From Citreicoccus inhibens (GTDB lineage: Bacteria; Myxococcota; Myxococcia; Myxococcales; Myxococcaceae): a DNA stretch of 64,000 nucleotides. The notes beneath the pieces are model-generated. The model worked only from the letters and a program-made list of their open reading frames with translations, ran no database searches and was not told where the DNA came from. Positions 39,854 to 44,059 of the stretch are shown here, piece after piece. The stretch covers positions 124,001 to 188,000 of the forward strand of contig NZ_JAHNZT010000009.1 in assembly GCF_019039035.1 (NCBI RefSeq). Direction: 5' to 3'. The translations under genes and the position numbers were made by a program. The stretch's first letter is position 1; every line of letters starts with the position of its first letter.

Positions 39854-40522
39854 ATGTCCACGCCTCCGGCTCGGCCCGCTTCGGACCCTCAGCGACTCCT
39901 CACGGAAGAGACGTTCGAGGGGGAGACCTTCACCAATCTGGACCTTGAGAGCGCGGACCTGCGTGGCAAGGAGTTCTTCCGGTGCTCGTTCCAGGACTCG
40001 CGCTTCCAGGGGAGCGTGTGGTCGAAGGCGAAGCTGGAGGAGTGTGTCTATTCGAGCTGTGACCTGACGCGCGCGCAGTTCTCGCAGACGGCGATGCGGG
40101 GGGTGCGCTTCGAGAACTCGAAGTTGATGGGCATTGATTGGTCGGTGGTGGCGCCCTTCCACGAGATGTCCTTCGAGGGGTGCAACCTGCGCTACGGCTC
40201 CTTCCTGGGGCTCATCTTGCGCAAGACGCGCATCGTCCAGTGCATCGCGCTGGAGACGAGCTTCACGGACATGGACCTCGCGGAGACGGACTTCGAAGGA
40301 ACGGACCTCTCGGGCTGCACGTTCCACAACTGCAACCTCACGCGAGCGGACTTCCAGAACGCGATGGGCGTCTTCATCGACCCCGCGAGGAACCGCGTGA
40401 AAGAGACCCGGGTGCCCGTGGAGGCCGCGGTGCAACTGGCGAAGTCCCTGGGGCTGGTGGTGCCCGGTTACGGAGAGGGACCCAAGCTGGGGGCGGGAGG
40501 GGAGCGCAAGCGACGGCGCTGA
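39854..40522 (+). CDS. Pentapeptide-repeat protein
   Basis: The 222-residue protein is built of A(D/N)Lxx-type repeats from about residue 20 to 175, for example FTNLDLESADLRGKEFFRC, FSQTAMRGVRFENSKLMGID and DLAETDFEGTDLSGCTFHN. These form a right-handed quadrilateral beta-helix. The layout, with a break near WSVVAPFHEM, resembles Qnr-like proteins that protect DNA gyrase; whether it does so here is unknown. A basic tail (GGERKRRR) ends the protein. There is no signal peptide. ATG 39854 is preferred to the open frame upstream. Confidence 0.8.
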   Translation: MSTPPARPASDPQRLLTEETFEGETFTNLDLESADLRGKEFFRCSFQDSRFQGSVWSKAKLEECVYSSCDLTRAQFSQTAMRGVRFENSKLMGIDWSVVAPFHEMSFEGCNLRYGSFLGLILRKTRIVQCIALETSFTDMDLAETDFEGTDLSGCTFHNCNLTRADFQNAMGVFIDPARNRVKETRVPVEAAVQLAKSLGLVVPGYGEGPKLGAGGERKRRR

Positions 40523-40535
40523 GGTGGCGCGCGCG

Positions 40536-40799
40536 TCATGCCAAGACCGCGTGGGGCGCCGAGGCCGCCTTCGCGGGGACGAACTCTTCGGGCGGAGCCG
40601 AGAACCCGTTCCAGAACACCCAGAGCCGGCGGCACGGATGGCATTTGAGGAAGCTGCTCATCGACGAATAGACAGCCTCCGCATCCACCTGCCCCGAGAA
40701 CCGGTCAAAGTCGAAGTCCGACATAAAGAGCCACTCGTCAGGACAGGGAATCTGGCCGTAGGGAATCTGCCGACCGCATGTACAATTCCAGCTTGGCAT
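40536..40799 (-). CDS. Small Cys-rich protein next to the toxin island, function unknown
   Basis: The 87-residue product has a likely zinc site: CTCGRQIPYGQIPC at the N-terminus (C6, C8, C19) and CHPC at about 53-56. Between them is an acidic segment (DFDFDRFSGQVDAE). It starts at ATG 40799 with a strong GGGAGG upstream. It lies 125 nt downstream of the Imm1-like gene in the same direction, so it could be the last gene of the toxin-immunity operon. I do not recognise the family. It could be an orphan immunity or an adaptor protein; this is inference from position only. Confidence 0.6.
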   Translation of the reverse strand: MPSWNCTCGRQIPYGQIPCPDEWLFMSDFDFDRFSGQVDAEAVYSSMSSFLKCHPCRRLWVFWNGFSAPPEEFVPAKAASAPHAVLA

Positions 40800-40923
40800 T
40801 CGTTTCCTCCCAAGAGTGATTCGGCTGCCGGCTCAGTCGCGCGAGCAGACTGTTGCTGGATGCTGGCCAGAAGCTCGCGAGCCTGACCTGCTTCACTCTC
40901 GCCAGTTCCTTTCCGTAGGACTT

Positions 40924-41358
40924 CTAGATCCTGTGAACTGGTTCTCCATCGGCCATGCGTCGGAGGCGCTCGTCTGATCGCCTCCAAGACGCAGAAGGAA
41001 GTCGTCCTCCTGTGGAGAAATAGTACTCGGCGGCAAGTACAGCCTGTTTGACGTCAACCAGGGCGTCGCGGGTGAGCGTTTGCATCCGTGTCCCAACGAC
41101 ACATTCGATCAGGTCAGCTGATTGGGTCGAATCAACAAGGTCGTATTCTTCAACCTCTCCGACAGCGCGAATAGAAATGAAAAGTCCAGAGGGTTTGCAG
41201 CGACTGATAATCATGAATTGATCGCTGGTTTCTGACTCGCCCATGGAGAGCGTGCATACTTCGCCAAGAGATAGGCGCTCAATCGCATCGAGTACCAAGC
41301 TCCACTCTGTGGACTCCTCATCACCATCGACTCCAACGTATTTTACGAAGCTCATCAT
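40924..41358 (-). CDS. Imm1-like immunity protein
   Basis: The 144-residue cytoplasmic protein carries acidic surface segments (VGVDGDEESTEWSL) and ends its core with AAEYYFSTGGRLPSASW. This resembles the closing helix and Trp of Imm1-family immunity proteins. From memory, Imm1 is commonly found beside toxins of the deaminase superfamily, which matches the gene upstream. Its ATG overlaps the toxin stop (ATGATGA), so it is translated with the toxin, as expected for protection of the producer. It should bind and inhibit the deaminase domain. The assignment rests on pattern and context. Confidence 0.65.
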   Translation of the reverse strand: MMSFVKYVGVDGDEESTEWSLVLDAIERLSLGEVCTLSMGESETSDQFMIISRCKPSGLFISIRAVGEVEEYDLVDSTQSADLIECVVGTRMQTLTRDALVDVKQAVLAAEYYFSTGGRLPSASWRRSDERLRRMADGEPVHRI

Positions 41359-42674
41359 TGCCCCAATGGGTAGACGCGCCCTTCCGGGTACTTAGGATCA
41401 TGCACCTCTACCTCTTTCAGTCCCAGGATATGCCTCGCATTTGAGATTGATCGCAAGCAATAAGGACACAACTCCCTGTCAACGAAGAGCCGCGCTCTCT
41501 TGCCCTGCGCGTTATCCATGAATGCTCGATAGAAGACGGTCCCTTCGGCATGATCAACGAATGGGACAGTGGCGCCCCCATTTGCCCCATTCTCCAATGC
41601 CGCCTCCCTGACTAGCTCAAGAAAGGCCGGGCGATCTGATTTTGGAATCCCTGCCTCTTGTCCAAAGTATCGCCGACCGTCGATTTCCAGCATTGCCAGA
41701 GTTGACGTGTCCCCGCTCGAGCCTGCACGAGGAAGTCCTAGCTGCGCTCTCCGCTGCGCAAGGAGCATCGATGCTTGCCGATATTCCGCCGAACGGAAAT
41801 TGATCCGTATGGGCGGAGGTATCCCTGGCACATTTGTCGCCAGCCCCTCGGCCTCAATATCGGAAAACATCCAGGTTGGCAGGTGCTCAACTGGGAGGCT
41901 CTGGCGAAGTTCGCCATAGCCATATTGGGCGCCAACTGCACCAAGCGCAACGAGCGATGCCCCATACACGCATCGCCCATAGTCTCCACTCGAAGATACT
42001 GCAACTTGCCCTGCGCCTTGCCCAATTGCCTGCCCGCTAAAATACAGCGCAACCCCGACAGCCGCCACTTTCCCCAGTCGCCCAGTCTTCCCTGTCAGCG
42101 CGAGGGCAGGCGGAACAGCGCACATGTCAATGCCGCGTTCGAGTGCCCCGAAATGGTCGATCTGATCTAGTGTGCGGACGTGGTTGGGGTCTTCATATGT
42201 CTGGGATGCGACATCCAGGGCGTAGCCGAGCGCCACTCCTGCTGCCAAGCCTTTTGGGCCGCCAGTGTAAAGTCCAATTGCGGCGGCTGTCGAGGTCATC
42301 TTTCCTCGGACTTCGCCTTGATTCATTGCGAGTGTGACGTTCTCTACCTGTCGCGAGTCTTGACAGAATTTGATTGTCAGGCCGGTAAGATCTGCAGCGC
42401 CACACATGAGCGCCAAGCCATTCCCGGGCGCCGAGGGCTCTAGTGATTGACGTCCATCCGGATCTGTATGGCGAAGCGGATTTGAGCTTGCATACAGCCA
42501 GGGCGTGAATTCAATGGGTTGGGGTAGGCGTTGCTGGGTCGCGAGGATGTCCCCCAGCAACGGGTCCTCGGATAGGAAGCGGCCCGTTCCTGCGTCGTAC
42601 CATCGAGCTGATGCGGTGATGGGGAAAATAATCAAGAGCAGTAGGTATAGATGTTTTGAGAGTGCTCTTTTCAT
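41355..42674 (-). CDS. Orphan RHS-tip protein with C-terminal deaminase-like toxin domain
   Basis: The 439-residue protein begins with a hydrophobic signal-like helix (MKRALSKHLYLLLLIIFPIT). It then enters directly the RHS core end: RWYDAGTGRFLSEDPL, followed by WLYASSNPLRHTDPDGR (about 24-75), which is where full RHS proteins cut off their toxin. A glycine-rich hydrophobic region follows. The last 100 residues hold HAEG (His375, Glu377) and CPYC (Cys403, Cys406), the zinc motif of cytidine deaminase-fold toxins, closest in pattern to SCP1.201/DddA-like members. It lacks the about 1000-residue RHS cage. It overlaps its neighbours on both sides by stop/start. Confidence 0.75.
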   Translation of the reverse strand: MKRALSKHLYLLLLIIFPITASARWYDAGTGRFLSEDPLLGDILATQQRLPQPIEFTPWLYASSNPLRHTDPDGRQSLEPSAPGNGLALMCGAADLTGLTIKFCQDSRQVENVTLAMNQGEVRGKMTSTAAAIGLYTGGPKGLAAGVALGYALDVASQTYEDPNHVRTLDQIDHFGALERGIDMCAVPPALALTGKTGRLGKVAAVGVALYFSGQAIGQGAGQVAVSSSGDYGRCVYGASLVALGAVGAQYGYGELRQSLPVEHLPTWMFSDIEAEGLATNVPGIPPPIRINFRSAEYRQASMLLAQRRAQLGLPRAGSSGDTSTLAMLEIDGRRYFGQEAGIPKSDRPAFLELVREAALENGANGGATVPFVDHAEGTVFYRAFMDNAQGKRARLFVDRELCPYCLRSISNARHILGLKEVEVHDPKYPEGRVYPLGQ

Positions 42675-43876
42675 TGGGGCTCACCCATATCCAACGGGCT
42701 GAACTGAGCGCAGCGATTGCCAGGAGCGGGTCCGCAGAGTTGCGAGCAAACGCGCAGGACGCTCCCGGGTTCGTGCGATGCGCGATTGAAGACAATTGGG
42801 TCTACTGCCAAGGCAAACTGGATGGGCTTTCCGCCAGGTGTGAATAGCGTAGATAAATCAAACGCCGGGGGTTCTGGGCGCCTTGCTTCTGCCTCTGTTC
42901 CCCCTAGTGTAGATACCCTTTTCCAGTAGTCGCGAGCCAGCGGGCGGGGTGCCCCAAGCCGCGTCGTGATTTGTGCGTAGCTCAGAGCAAGTCGTGTTGC
43001 CTCCCTTGCTCGTGCAGCCTTGAGAGGCGGCCCATTCGTATCCGTTCCCCTCACTGATACCTGCATGGCCGCCAGATAGTTATGGGCAAGCGCGAGATTC
43101 CAATTGGCTGTCACGCTGCGCGGATGGACCGTGAGGGTGAGTTCCGAAAGGCGCGCAGCAAGCCCGATGTTCCAATCCTTCATGAGGCGGGCCGCAGCCT
43201 CTGCAATCAGTGCTCCCAGCAGTTCCCTTTTGGCGAGGGAGCGCATCATGGAGCCAGAAGACCGTGCCTCCTTGGGAACCTCCAAGTCTAGAATAATCCT
43301 CTCGTCATCCACCTCACCCCCACCAGAGGTTGCCTCGATGTTAGATCGATATTTCCCGTCTGAGTAGCGCAGGAAGAAATGGTGAGGGGCTTCTACCATG
43401 GCCACTGGGTAATTGAGGCGTTCAGCTACGGCGTACCAGAGCACCGGAAGAGAAACACAGTTGCCTTTCTTTGATTCAAGCAGTCGCCATAGGGAGGAAG
43501 CATCGACCCGCTCGCCTAGTGGGTCAGCCTTGTCGTAGGCATAGTTGTTCTCTCGATAGATCACTTGGTTGATGGCGCGAATCCTGTAATCAGGGTCTGT
43601 GCGTCCGCCCACCAGGGTGCGCACCTGGTCTGCAAGTAGGTTAATGCGACGCAGCCCTTCGCTGACGTTGGTGTCTGGATCCACGAATGAGCCCAAGCGC
43701 AAGGACGCTTCGCCGATGCTTAGGCGCTCCTCCGGGAGTGCTAGCAATTCCTTTGCAGCGCGCACCATGGGTGGTTCCTCTGTGGCCCGCGCAGGGGTTG
43801 GCCACCAGAGAAGTAGGGCGATGGCTGAGAGTAACCCTCTGAATGCGCTGCCGAGATTGGGTTGCAAGCTGACCAT
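42671..43876 (-). CDS. Secreted transglutaminase-like (SirB1-type) protein, first gene of the toxin operon
   Basis: The 401-residue product has a signal peptide (FRGLLSAIALLLWWPTPARA). The transglutaminase-like domain (about 60-185) shows RENNYAYDKADPLGERVDA, KKGNCVSLPVLWY with Cys140, and VEAPHHFFLRY with His165/166. This is the pattern of SirB1-like cysteine hydrolase folds. The C-terminal half is helical, with TPR-like NWNLALAHNYLAAM. Its TGA overlaps the ATG of the RHS toxin gene. It could process or escort the toxin; that is inference. ATG 43876 fits the signal peptide; the frame is open upstream. Confidence 0.75.
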   Translation of the reverse strand: MVSLQPNLGSAFRGLLSAIALLLWWPTPARATEEPPMVRAAKELLALPEERLSIGEASLRLGSFVDPDTNVSEGLRRINLLADQVRTLVGGRTDPDYRIRAINQVIYRENNYAYDKADPLGERVDASSLWRLLESKKGNCVSLPVLWYAVAERLNYPVAMVEAPHHFFLRYSDGKYRSNIEATSGGGEVDDERIILDLEVPKEARSSGSMMRSLAKRELLGALIAEAAARLMKDWNIGLAARLSELTLTVHPRSVTANWNLALAHNYLAAMQVSVRGTDTNGPPLKAARAREATRLALSYAQITTRLGAPRPLARDYWKRVSTLGGTEAEARRPEPPAFDLSTLFTPGGKPIQFALAVDPIVFNRASHEPGSVLRVCSQLCGPAPGNRCAQFSPLDMGEPQ

Positions 43877-43936
43877 GGTTGTGCGGTGGTAGGGATACCA
43901 TGCCCGGCTGACGCCGAGAATGCGGTATGTCACTAC

Positions 43937-43962
43937 AGAGGTGCTTCTTGAGAAGCATCTCT
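43937..43962. promoter_or_regulatory. 26-nt inverted repeat upstream of the toxin operon
   Basis: AGAGGTGCTTCT and AGAAGCATCTCT form a 12-pair inverted repeat (one G-T) with a 2-nt centre. It lies 61 nt upstream of the transglutaminase-like start and about 100 nt upstream of the divergent PD40 gene. The position fits an operator for either promoter. A hairpin in RNA is less likely with so small a loop. Confidence 0.4.
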
Positions 43963-44059
43963 GCGTGCCGTCCTTTTGCGCGTCGAGAGTTGTGCGCCGG
44001 GGCGCATGTCGGGTCCGCGGATGTAGAACAGTAGGGCGCTTGGGCGATATGACCTTGGC

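Follow-up and report, generated by a model that had tools for sequence, protein, structure and literature searches.

We analysed a 64,000-nucleotide stretch of the Citreicoccus inhibens genome (contig NZ_JAHNZT010000009.1, positions 124,001–188,000; hereafter the window) and find that three overlapping minus-strand genes within it, encoding a transglutaminase-like (TG) protein, a toxin with only half of an RHS-associated core and a probable immunity protein, form one conserved and exchangeable unit, a conclusion that is well supported. This layout is an undescribed variant of polymorphic toxin systems; no description of it was found in open-licence PubMed Central papers, the only literature searched. 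The sequence itself shows the gene set and its linkage, the half core, the position of the toxin's predicted signal peptide, a conserved Cys–His pair in the TG protein and exchange of the whole cassette. The three open reading frames, already recognized in an earlier sequence-only reading, were confirmed at 42671–43876 (ATG at 43876), 41355–42674 and 40924–41358. The TG stop and toxin start share ATGA at 42671–42674, as that reading had it, and the toxin stop and immunity start share ATGATGA, which we place at 41352–41358 rather than 41355–41358. Its further claim that the products are made in fixed order and ratio does not follow from gene overlap alone.

The window's genome (9.05 Mb) carries three such cassettes, with TG proteins about 69% identical and differing tips; because two paralogous loci in this genome keep both the TG gene and the toxin N-terminus (68% over residues 1–78 and 58% over residues 4–77, with differing C-termini), the gene set is more than chance. 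Some TG match at an expect value (E) of 1e-3 or better occurs in 33 of 96 genomes of the family, and the strong matches comprise nine loci in five genomes; a set of 195 genomes from the phylum added a tenth strong locus, with a gap in E from 4e-61 to 8e-27 before the next relative. All ten strong Myxococcota loci have a gene encoding a signal peptide and half core next on the same strand, and the carriers besides the window's genome include Corallococcus sicarius, an Archangium metagenome-assembled genome and an uncultured Myxococcales metagenome-assembled genome. These searches scored the top candidates per genome (19 in the 96-genome set, 9 in the 195-genome set) and the contig scans used short peptide patterns, the first of which found nothing and the second of which, with a broader alignment, gave three loci, so distant or additional loci may be missed.

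The association was also examined from the toxin side. Twelve RHS core matches in six carrier genomes cover only the later part of the core, and ten of them are TG-linked; the remaining two are a tip displaced by an insertion sequence (IS), which lacks a signal peptide, and an uninspected match at E 0.41. A profile of signal peptide plus half core, run on the 96 genomes, reached the signal peptide only in the nine known loci among the matches listed. This test is partly circular because the profile was built from those nine loci, and we therefore read 13 other RHS frames (200–686 residues) in genomes without a strong TG match: not one carries a signal peptide at its core, 12 continue upstream in frame with more RHS core, and the last (L184) has an unrelated-looking frame upstream. 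Within the window's genome, the five other RHS core matches cover both halves (four start at position 1, one at position 13) and run into tips of their own, and RHS repeats lie within four of these five frames and nowhere else.

The linkage reaches rhizobial plasmids. TG relatives occur in 5 of 72,556 plasmid records, representing four distinct loci, in Neorhizobium petrolearium, Rhizobium lentis, R. leguminosarum and two Mesorhizobium plasmids that carry the same element, and in all four distinct loci a half-core gene follows the TG gene. The sequence-only reading had proposed to give up its three-part system if relatives of the toxin occurred mostly without the TG gene; instead, the ten strong Myxococcota loci and the four rhizobial ones all pair TG with a half-core toxin. 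Both N. petrolearium and R. lentis have the TG gene exactly between a tipless RHS cage gene and a half-core tip gene, an arrangement that is a split RHS toxin; cage and TG genes overlap by ATGA in each, and TG and tip genes are 27 bases apart in N. petrolearium. The full RHS protein of N. petrolearium reads ..NARYYDPAFGRFISPDDWDP.., and the split cage ends ..NARYYDPAFGRFIPKDD.., followed by TG, then a signal peptide and RFISPDTMDP.. with the tip. Ahead of the TG gene lie a cage remnant ending GRFLPRDD.. in R. leguminosarum and a Tn3 transposase gene in Mesorhizobium. Split cages end GRF(I/V/L)P(K/R)DD in three of three cases (one an IS-disrupted remnant), GRFISPDD is found in the unsplit paralogue beside one split cage and in R. 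etli and Shinella fragments, and the rhizobial tips start (R/K)F(I/V)SPD after the signal peptide. Between them, the cage and tip pieces contain one whole core, which joining after Gly would restore exactly. The N. petrolearium plasmid also carries a type II secretion (gsp) cluster flanked by the unsplit RHS gene and the split RHS–TG–tip set (L116, 1993–8274; L114, 2309–10151), and the unsplit and split RHS genes have near-identical N-termini; no gsp cluster is present in the 28 kb around the R. lentis locus.

The TG gene (42671–43876) encodes a secreted protein of 401 residues with a signal-peptide-like N-terminus, a Transglut_core2 domain (PF13369; E 7.6e-16, 58.4 bits against a Pfam cut-off of 23.5) and TPR helices. 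The sequence-only reading was right to see a transglutaminase-like Cys–His protein, but its SirB1 label is ruled out: the protein scores 25.7 bits where the SirB1 equivalog NF008188 requires 391, and SirB1-like relatives have Pro at the Cys position. In an alignment of 14 linked TGs with 47 unlinked relatives (a stretch of the window itself also matched and was dropped), Cys140, the putative nucleophile within KKGNC (codon 43457–43459), is present in all 13 linked TGs that are readable there (G157, the fourteenth, is not), whereas the same site is Pro in 40 of the 47 unlinked relatives and Cys in the other 7, which form a group with a GSC motif. His166 (codon 43379–43381) and Glu181 (codon 43334–43336) are kept in 14 of 14 linked TGs and Asn179 in 13 of 14; compared with a catalytic triad, Cys and His are present and the third position would be Glu181 or Asn179. 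The GSC group was considered as a further member of the system and, as far as seen, does not belong to it: no RHS tip is listed in the surroundings of the five of its seven members that were read. In five of five stretches (L085–L089), the GSC-motif TG adjoins a large protein of about 580–720 residues, with glycosyltransferase-like and epimerase-like genes nearby in three of the five.

A tree of 13 linked TGs (without G157) and 34 of the 47 unlinked ones (13 near-copies omitted) places the linked proteins in one group (93/88); its neighbour is the GSC group (100/98), and the SirB1-like proteins (100/99) stand apart. Two subclades of linked TGs (98/97 and 99/98) parallel a difference in where the RHS core is cut: before the strand equivalent to RYYD..GRF in seven linked loci and before the equivalent of RF.SP in the other six. 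G157, absent from the tree, has the second (RF.SP) cut point, and Mesorhizobium has an extra stretch preceding it. This match between TG subclade and cut point is consistent with recognition of the half core by TG. The nearest fold to a structure model of the TG protein (mean predicted local distance difference test (pLDDT) 64.9, usable over residues 32–319) is menin, with Z 18.9 over 248 residues at 13% identity and the next fold at Z 8.5; as modelled, the resemblance is one of shared fold only, a TG-like domain followed by TPR helices. A search of the TG profile against the sequences of solved structures listed TPR-type proteins alone, and no TG relatives were found in phage and viral sources.

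The toxin (41355–42674, 439 residues) consists of a signal peptide (residues 1–23; 42606–42674), half an RHS core (residues 24–75; 42450–42605), a linker and a deaminase tip (41433–41741). The signal peptide ends in ASA, with the predicted cut just ahead of the RHS strand RWYDAGTGRF; this signal peptide was called by eye and the AxA rule, without a signal-peptide program. Only positions 34–75 of the 76 in the NCBIfam model Rhs_assc_core match the toxin, at residues 22–74 (28.5 bits, below the cut-off of 32.5), corresponding to the C-terminal half of the core, RWYD...GRFLSEDP...YASSNPLRHTDPDGR. The window toxin lacks a complete RHS-associated core, and no RHS repeat match was found at the cassette locus. 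The mature toxin probably begins at the Arg or Lys of the RHS strand in 13 of the 14 linked cases, 12 of them judged by the AxA pattern and C. sicarius by eye.

Behind this common N-terminus lie tips of MafB19, EndoU and SsdA_C type, a conserved N-terminus with differing C-termini, as in polymorphic toxin systems. The deaminase-like tip that the sequence-only reading saw in the window toxin, and on whose match to a deaminase profile it had staked its system, is borne out: the MafB19-like domain (MafB19-deam, PF14437) scores 27.3 bits, just above the Pfam gathering cut-off of 27, and both the HAE and CPYC motifs are present. A single-sequence model of the domain was too poor for a fold search (mean pLDDT 44.9), and a search of solved-structure sequences with the toxin gave nothing useful. 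Relatives of the deaminase domain occur in 5 of 72,556 plasmid records and, among the 195 phylum genomes, in the window's genome and weakly in one other (27% identity, E 1.9e-4); none was found in viral contigs. The plasmid relatives include an ordinary RHS protein in Burkholderia glumae, with an annotated Imm1 gene next, and a HecA-type adhesin in Agrobacterium, so the tip itself is not tied to TG. The TG gene, which the sequence-only reading called obligatory, is thus partnered with the half RHS core and not with the deaminase.

The B. glumae arrangement supports the pairing of toxin and immunity genes in the window, where the third gene (40924–41358) is a probable immunity gene, a divergent Imm1. 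What remains of its earlier description as Imm1-like is a weak likeness: the PF14430 match reaches 16.8 bits, below the gathering cut-off of 22.4, the blastp match to the B. glumae Imm1 is weak (E 0.005, in a set of four sequences only), and blastp finds weak matches to two neighbours of homologous deaminases. Nine of the 11 other linked toxins scanned have no Pfam tip family above cut-off; the other two have an EndoU tip followed by a CdiI_4 gene and an SsdA_C tip followed by an Imm5 gene. The genes downstream of five other cassettes include two that match these immunity families (CdiI_4 at C68, Imm5 in C. sicarius) and three that match none. The EndoU tip belongs to a paralogous cassette (G000 C68; L003/L046), and the SsdA_C-type deaminase tip of C. 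sicarius (L039, 5502–7295) lies in a frame separate from its half core. Four of the tips without a Pfam family above cut-off (L041, 2092–2985; L042, 2634–3404; L084, 4567–5193; L040, 4076–5125) include one that is weakly PPPDE-peptidase-like (E 0.023) and, by eye, two with HExxH and one with a GIY-YIG-like stretch.

The cassette as a whole (40894–44033) behaves as an exchangeable block. The six 500-base steps between 41000 and 43999 have a GC content of 52–59%, and the step 40500–40999 has 62%, against 65–77% in the other steps between 36000 and 50000. A sister species (G014; L200, 3488–5704) has flanks about 94% identical but, in place of 40894–44033, genes for a SitA5-family protein bearing an AHH nuclease tip and for Imm11; two species therefore carry different toxin–immunity sets at one site. 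SitA toxins act in myxobacterial kin discrimination (PMC5562445, PMC8546572). An 88-residue minus-strand gene at 40536–40799, which has Cys motifs, was considered as a second immunity gene and rejected because it is present in the flank of the sister species too; it has no plasmid relatives and no Pfam match.

We propose, with a probability of roughly 0.6, that the exposed RHS strand of the tip is what the TG protein acts on, in the periplasm. TG protein and toxin would both reach the periplasm through Sec signal peptides, and signal peptidase would bare the RHS strand, beginning Arg-Trp/Tyr, at the extreme N-terminus of the toxin. The menin-like TG–TPR scaffold, with its putative Cys-His-Glu/Asn site, could then bind the bared strand and process, load or join the tip so that it becomes deliverable, and the immunity protein would shield the producer. 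We infer the meeting in the periplasm, the direct action of TG on the half core, the delivery route and the target.

Several observations weigh against this proposal. TG-fold proteins, menin included, can be inactive scaffolds, and TG activity here is predicted. The support for the linked group (93/88) lies under the tree program's strict mark, and the parallel between TG subclades and cut points could be co-inherited from a single shared history. The TG model is modest (mean pLDDT 64.9, with residues 311–401 below 50), and Foldseek TM-scores against menin are low, at 0.29–0.40. A half-core gene with a signal peptide in Sinorhizobium chiapasense has no adjacent TG gene. Some frames are broken, for TG in G011, G048 C676 and G157 and for the toxin in C. 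sicarius, mostly in fragmented or metagenome assemblies. Finally, no cage gene was seen in the stretches around the ten Myxococcota cassettes, two of which end early at contig ends.

The TG protein could instead be a protease that trims the half core or the cage tail and so frees the tip, in the manner of LapG, a periplasmic TG-fold protease; we regard this as unlikely. The Cys–His pair is kept in linked TGs, and LapG is among the structural matches of the TG model, but its Z of 7.9 may reflect a mere common arrangement. RhsA-dependent killing does not occur unless the tip is cleaved (PMC8765631), and the RHS autoprotease described there uses an Asp dyad and a PxxxxDPxG cleavage motif. The window toxin keeps both Asp positions (D37 and D71), so a second protease is not obviously needed; its NPLRHTDPDG fits the motif, but the Asp spacing is 34, not 22, and the next residue is R rather than W, L or F.

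Likewise unlikely is that the TG protein has no catalytic role and serves as a menin-like chaperone or escort, binding the exposed RHS strand and replacing the missing cage. The menin-like TG–TPR fold favours such a role, as does the RHS strand with which 13 of the 14 mature toxins probably start, and human menin, which lacks the Cys, serves as a scaffold (PMC10318531). Against it, Cys, His and Glu are retained in the linked TGs, whereas Pro takes the place of the Cys in 40 of the 47 unlinked ones.

We hold it rather less probable that TG is a transpeptidase that cuts the tipless cage behind the Gly of ..DPAFG/RF.. and links it to the freed N-terminal Arg or Lys of the half core, rebuilding the core with interchangeable tips. 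The rhizobial loci invite this idea through their cage–TG–tip order with the cage/TG overlap in N. petrolearium and R. lentis, and through the divergence of the split cage ends from the unsplit GRFISPDD; because the tips, once rid of their signal peptide, start with (R/K)F(I/V)SPD, a G/R join would restore the canonical core. The Mesorhizobium tip, with its extra stretch ahead of RFISPD, fits poorly, and so do the myxobacteria, where type A tips start earlier in the core, the cassettes have no adjacent tipless cage and the five other cores of the window's genome span both halves with their own tips. A tipless cage was sought in the carrier genomes, but the sole core match confined to positions 1–32 (G088 C46) stops at a contig edge and so gives no evidence for one. 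The joining idea cannot readily be extended to the myxobacterial cassettes, whose surroundings, as far as read, contain no cage. Slightly more doubtful still is its general form, in which tips exported on their own would be covalently attached to an RHS cage by a dedicated TG-fold transpeptidase, so that the split core is rebuilt after export and one shell serves many tips. That the TG gene is a mere hitch-hiking neighbour co-inherited in mobile cassettes is very unlikely: the window cassette is indeed low in GC and exchangeable, but the linkage holds from myxobacteria to rhizobial plasmids though tips and downstream genes change.

Among the described systems found, the closest are SitBAI (PMC5562445) and RHS toxins to which an inactive TG is fused (PMC3482391); features that define each of the two are absent here. 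Zhang et al. 2012 (PMC3482391), the one open-licence paper found to join transglutaminase, RHS repeat and polymorphic toxin, describes RHS toxins with a signal peptide and an N-terminally fused TG that has lost its triad residues; in the window, TG is a separate protein that keeps Cys, His and Glu. SitBAI shares an accessory–toxin–immunity order, overlapping genes and a type I signal on the accessory protein, and SitA5 occupies the same site in the sister species. However, SitA is described as a lipoprotein with an escort domain and SitB as lacking recognisable homology, whereas here the accessory protein is a TG, the toxin has no lipobox (by eye) and an NCBIfam scan of it gave Rhs_assc_core alone, without the SitA escort domain. 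RHS/YD-repeat toxins, such as RhsA of the type VI secretion system and the Sec-type myxobacterial Rhs proteins, likewise carry a variable C-terminal toxin behind an RHS core with an immunity gene downstream; the window toxin differs in having no cage or YD repeats, a half core directly after the signal peptide and a TG partner. Tc toxin B/C forms a two-polypeptide RHS shell with the tip on the second polypeptide (PMC8765631) and is not known to have a TG partner, whereas the second piece here is a half core only. SirB1/Transglut_core2 proteins and menin share the TG–TPR architecture, but SirB1-like relatives have Pro for Cys and menin is eukaryotic, its human form lacking the Cys (PMC10318531).

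The loading, processing and delivery of Sec-exported RHS toxins are an open matter (PMC10433427, PMC13018210), and the bacterial function of the Transglut_core2 family is stated to be unknown (PMC10318531). The gene set hints at an undescribed way of toxin loading or processing, and the cassette, which pairs the last part of an RHS core with a Cys-containing menin-like TG, offers a small system in which to test this step. If the proposal is true, it would give a role to part of the Transglut_core2 family and might reveal a protein-joining enzyme.

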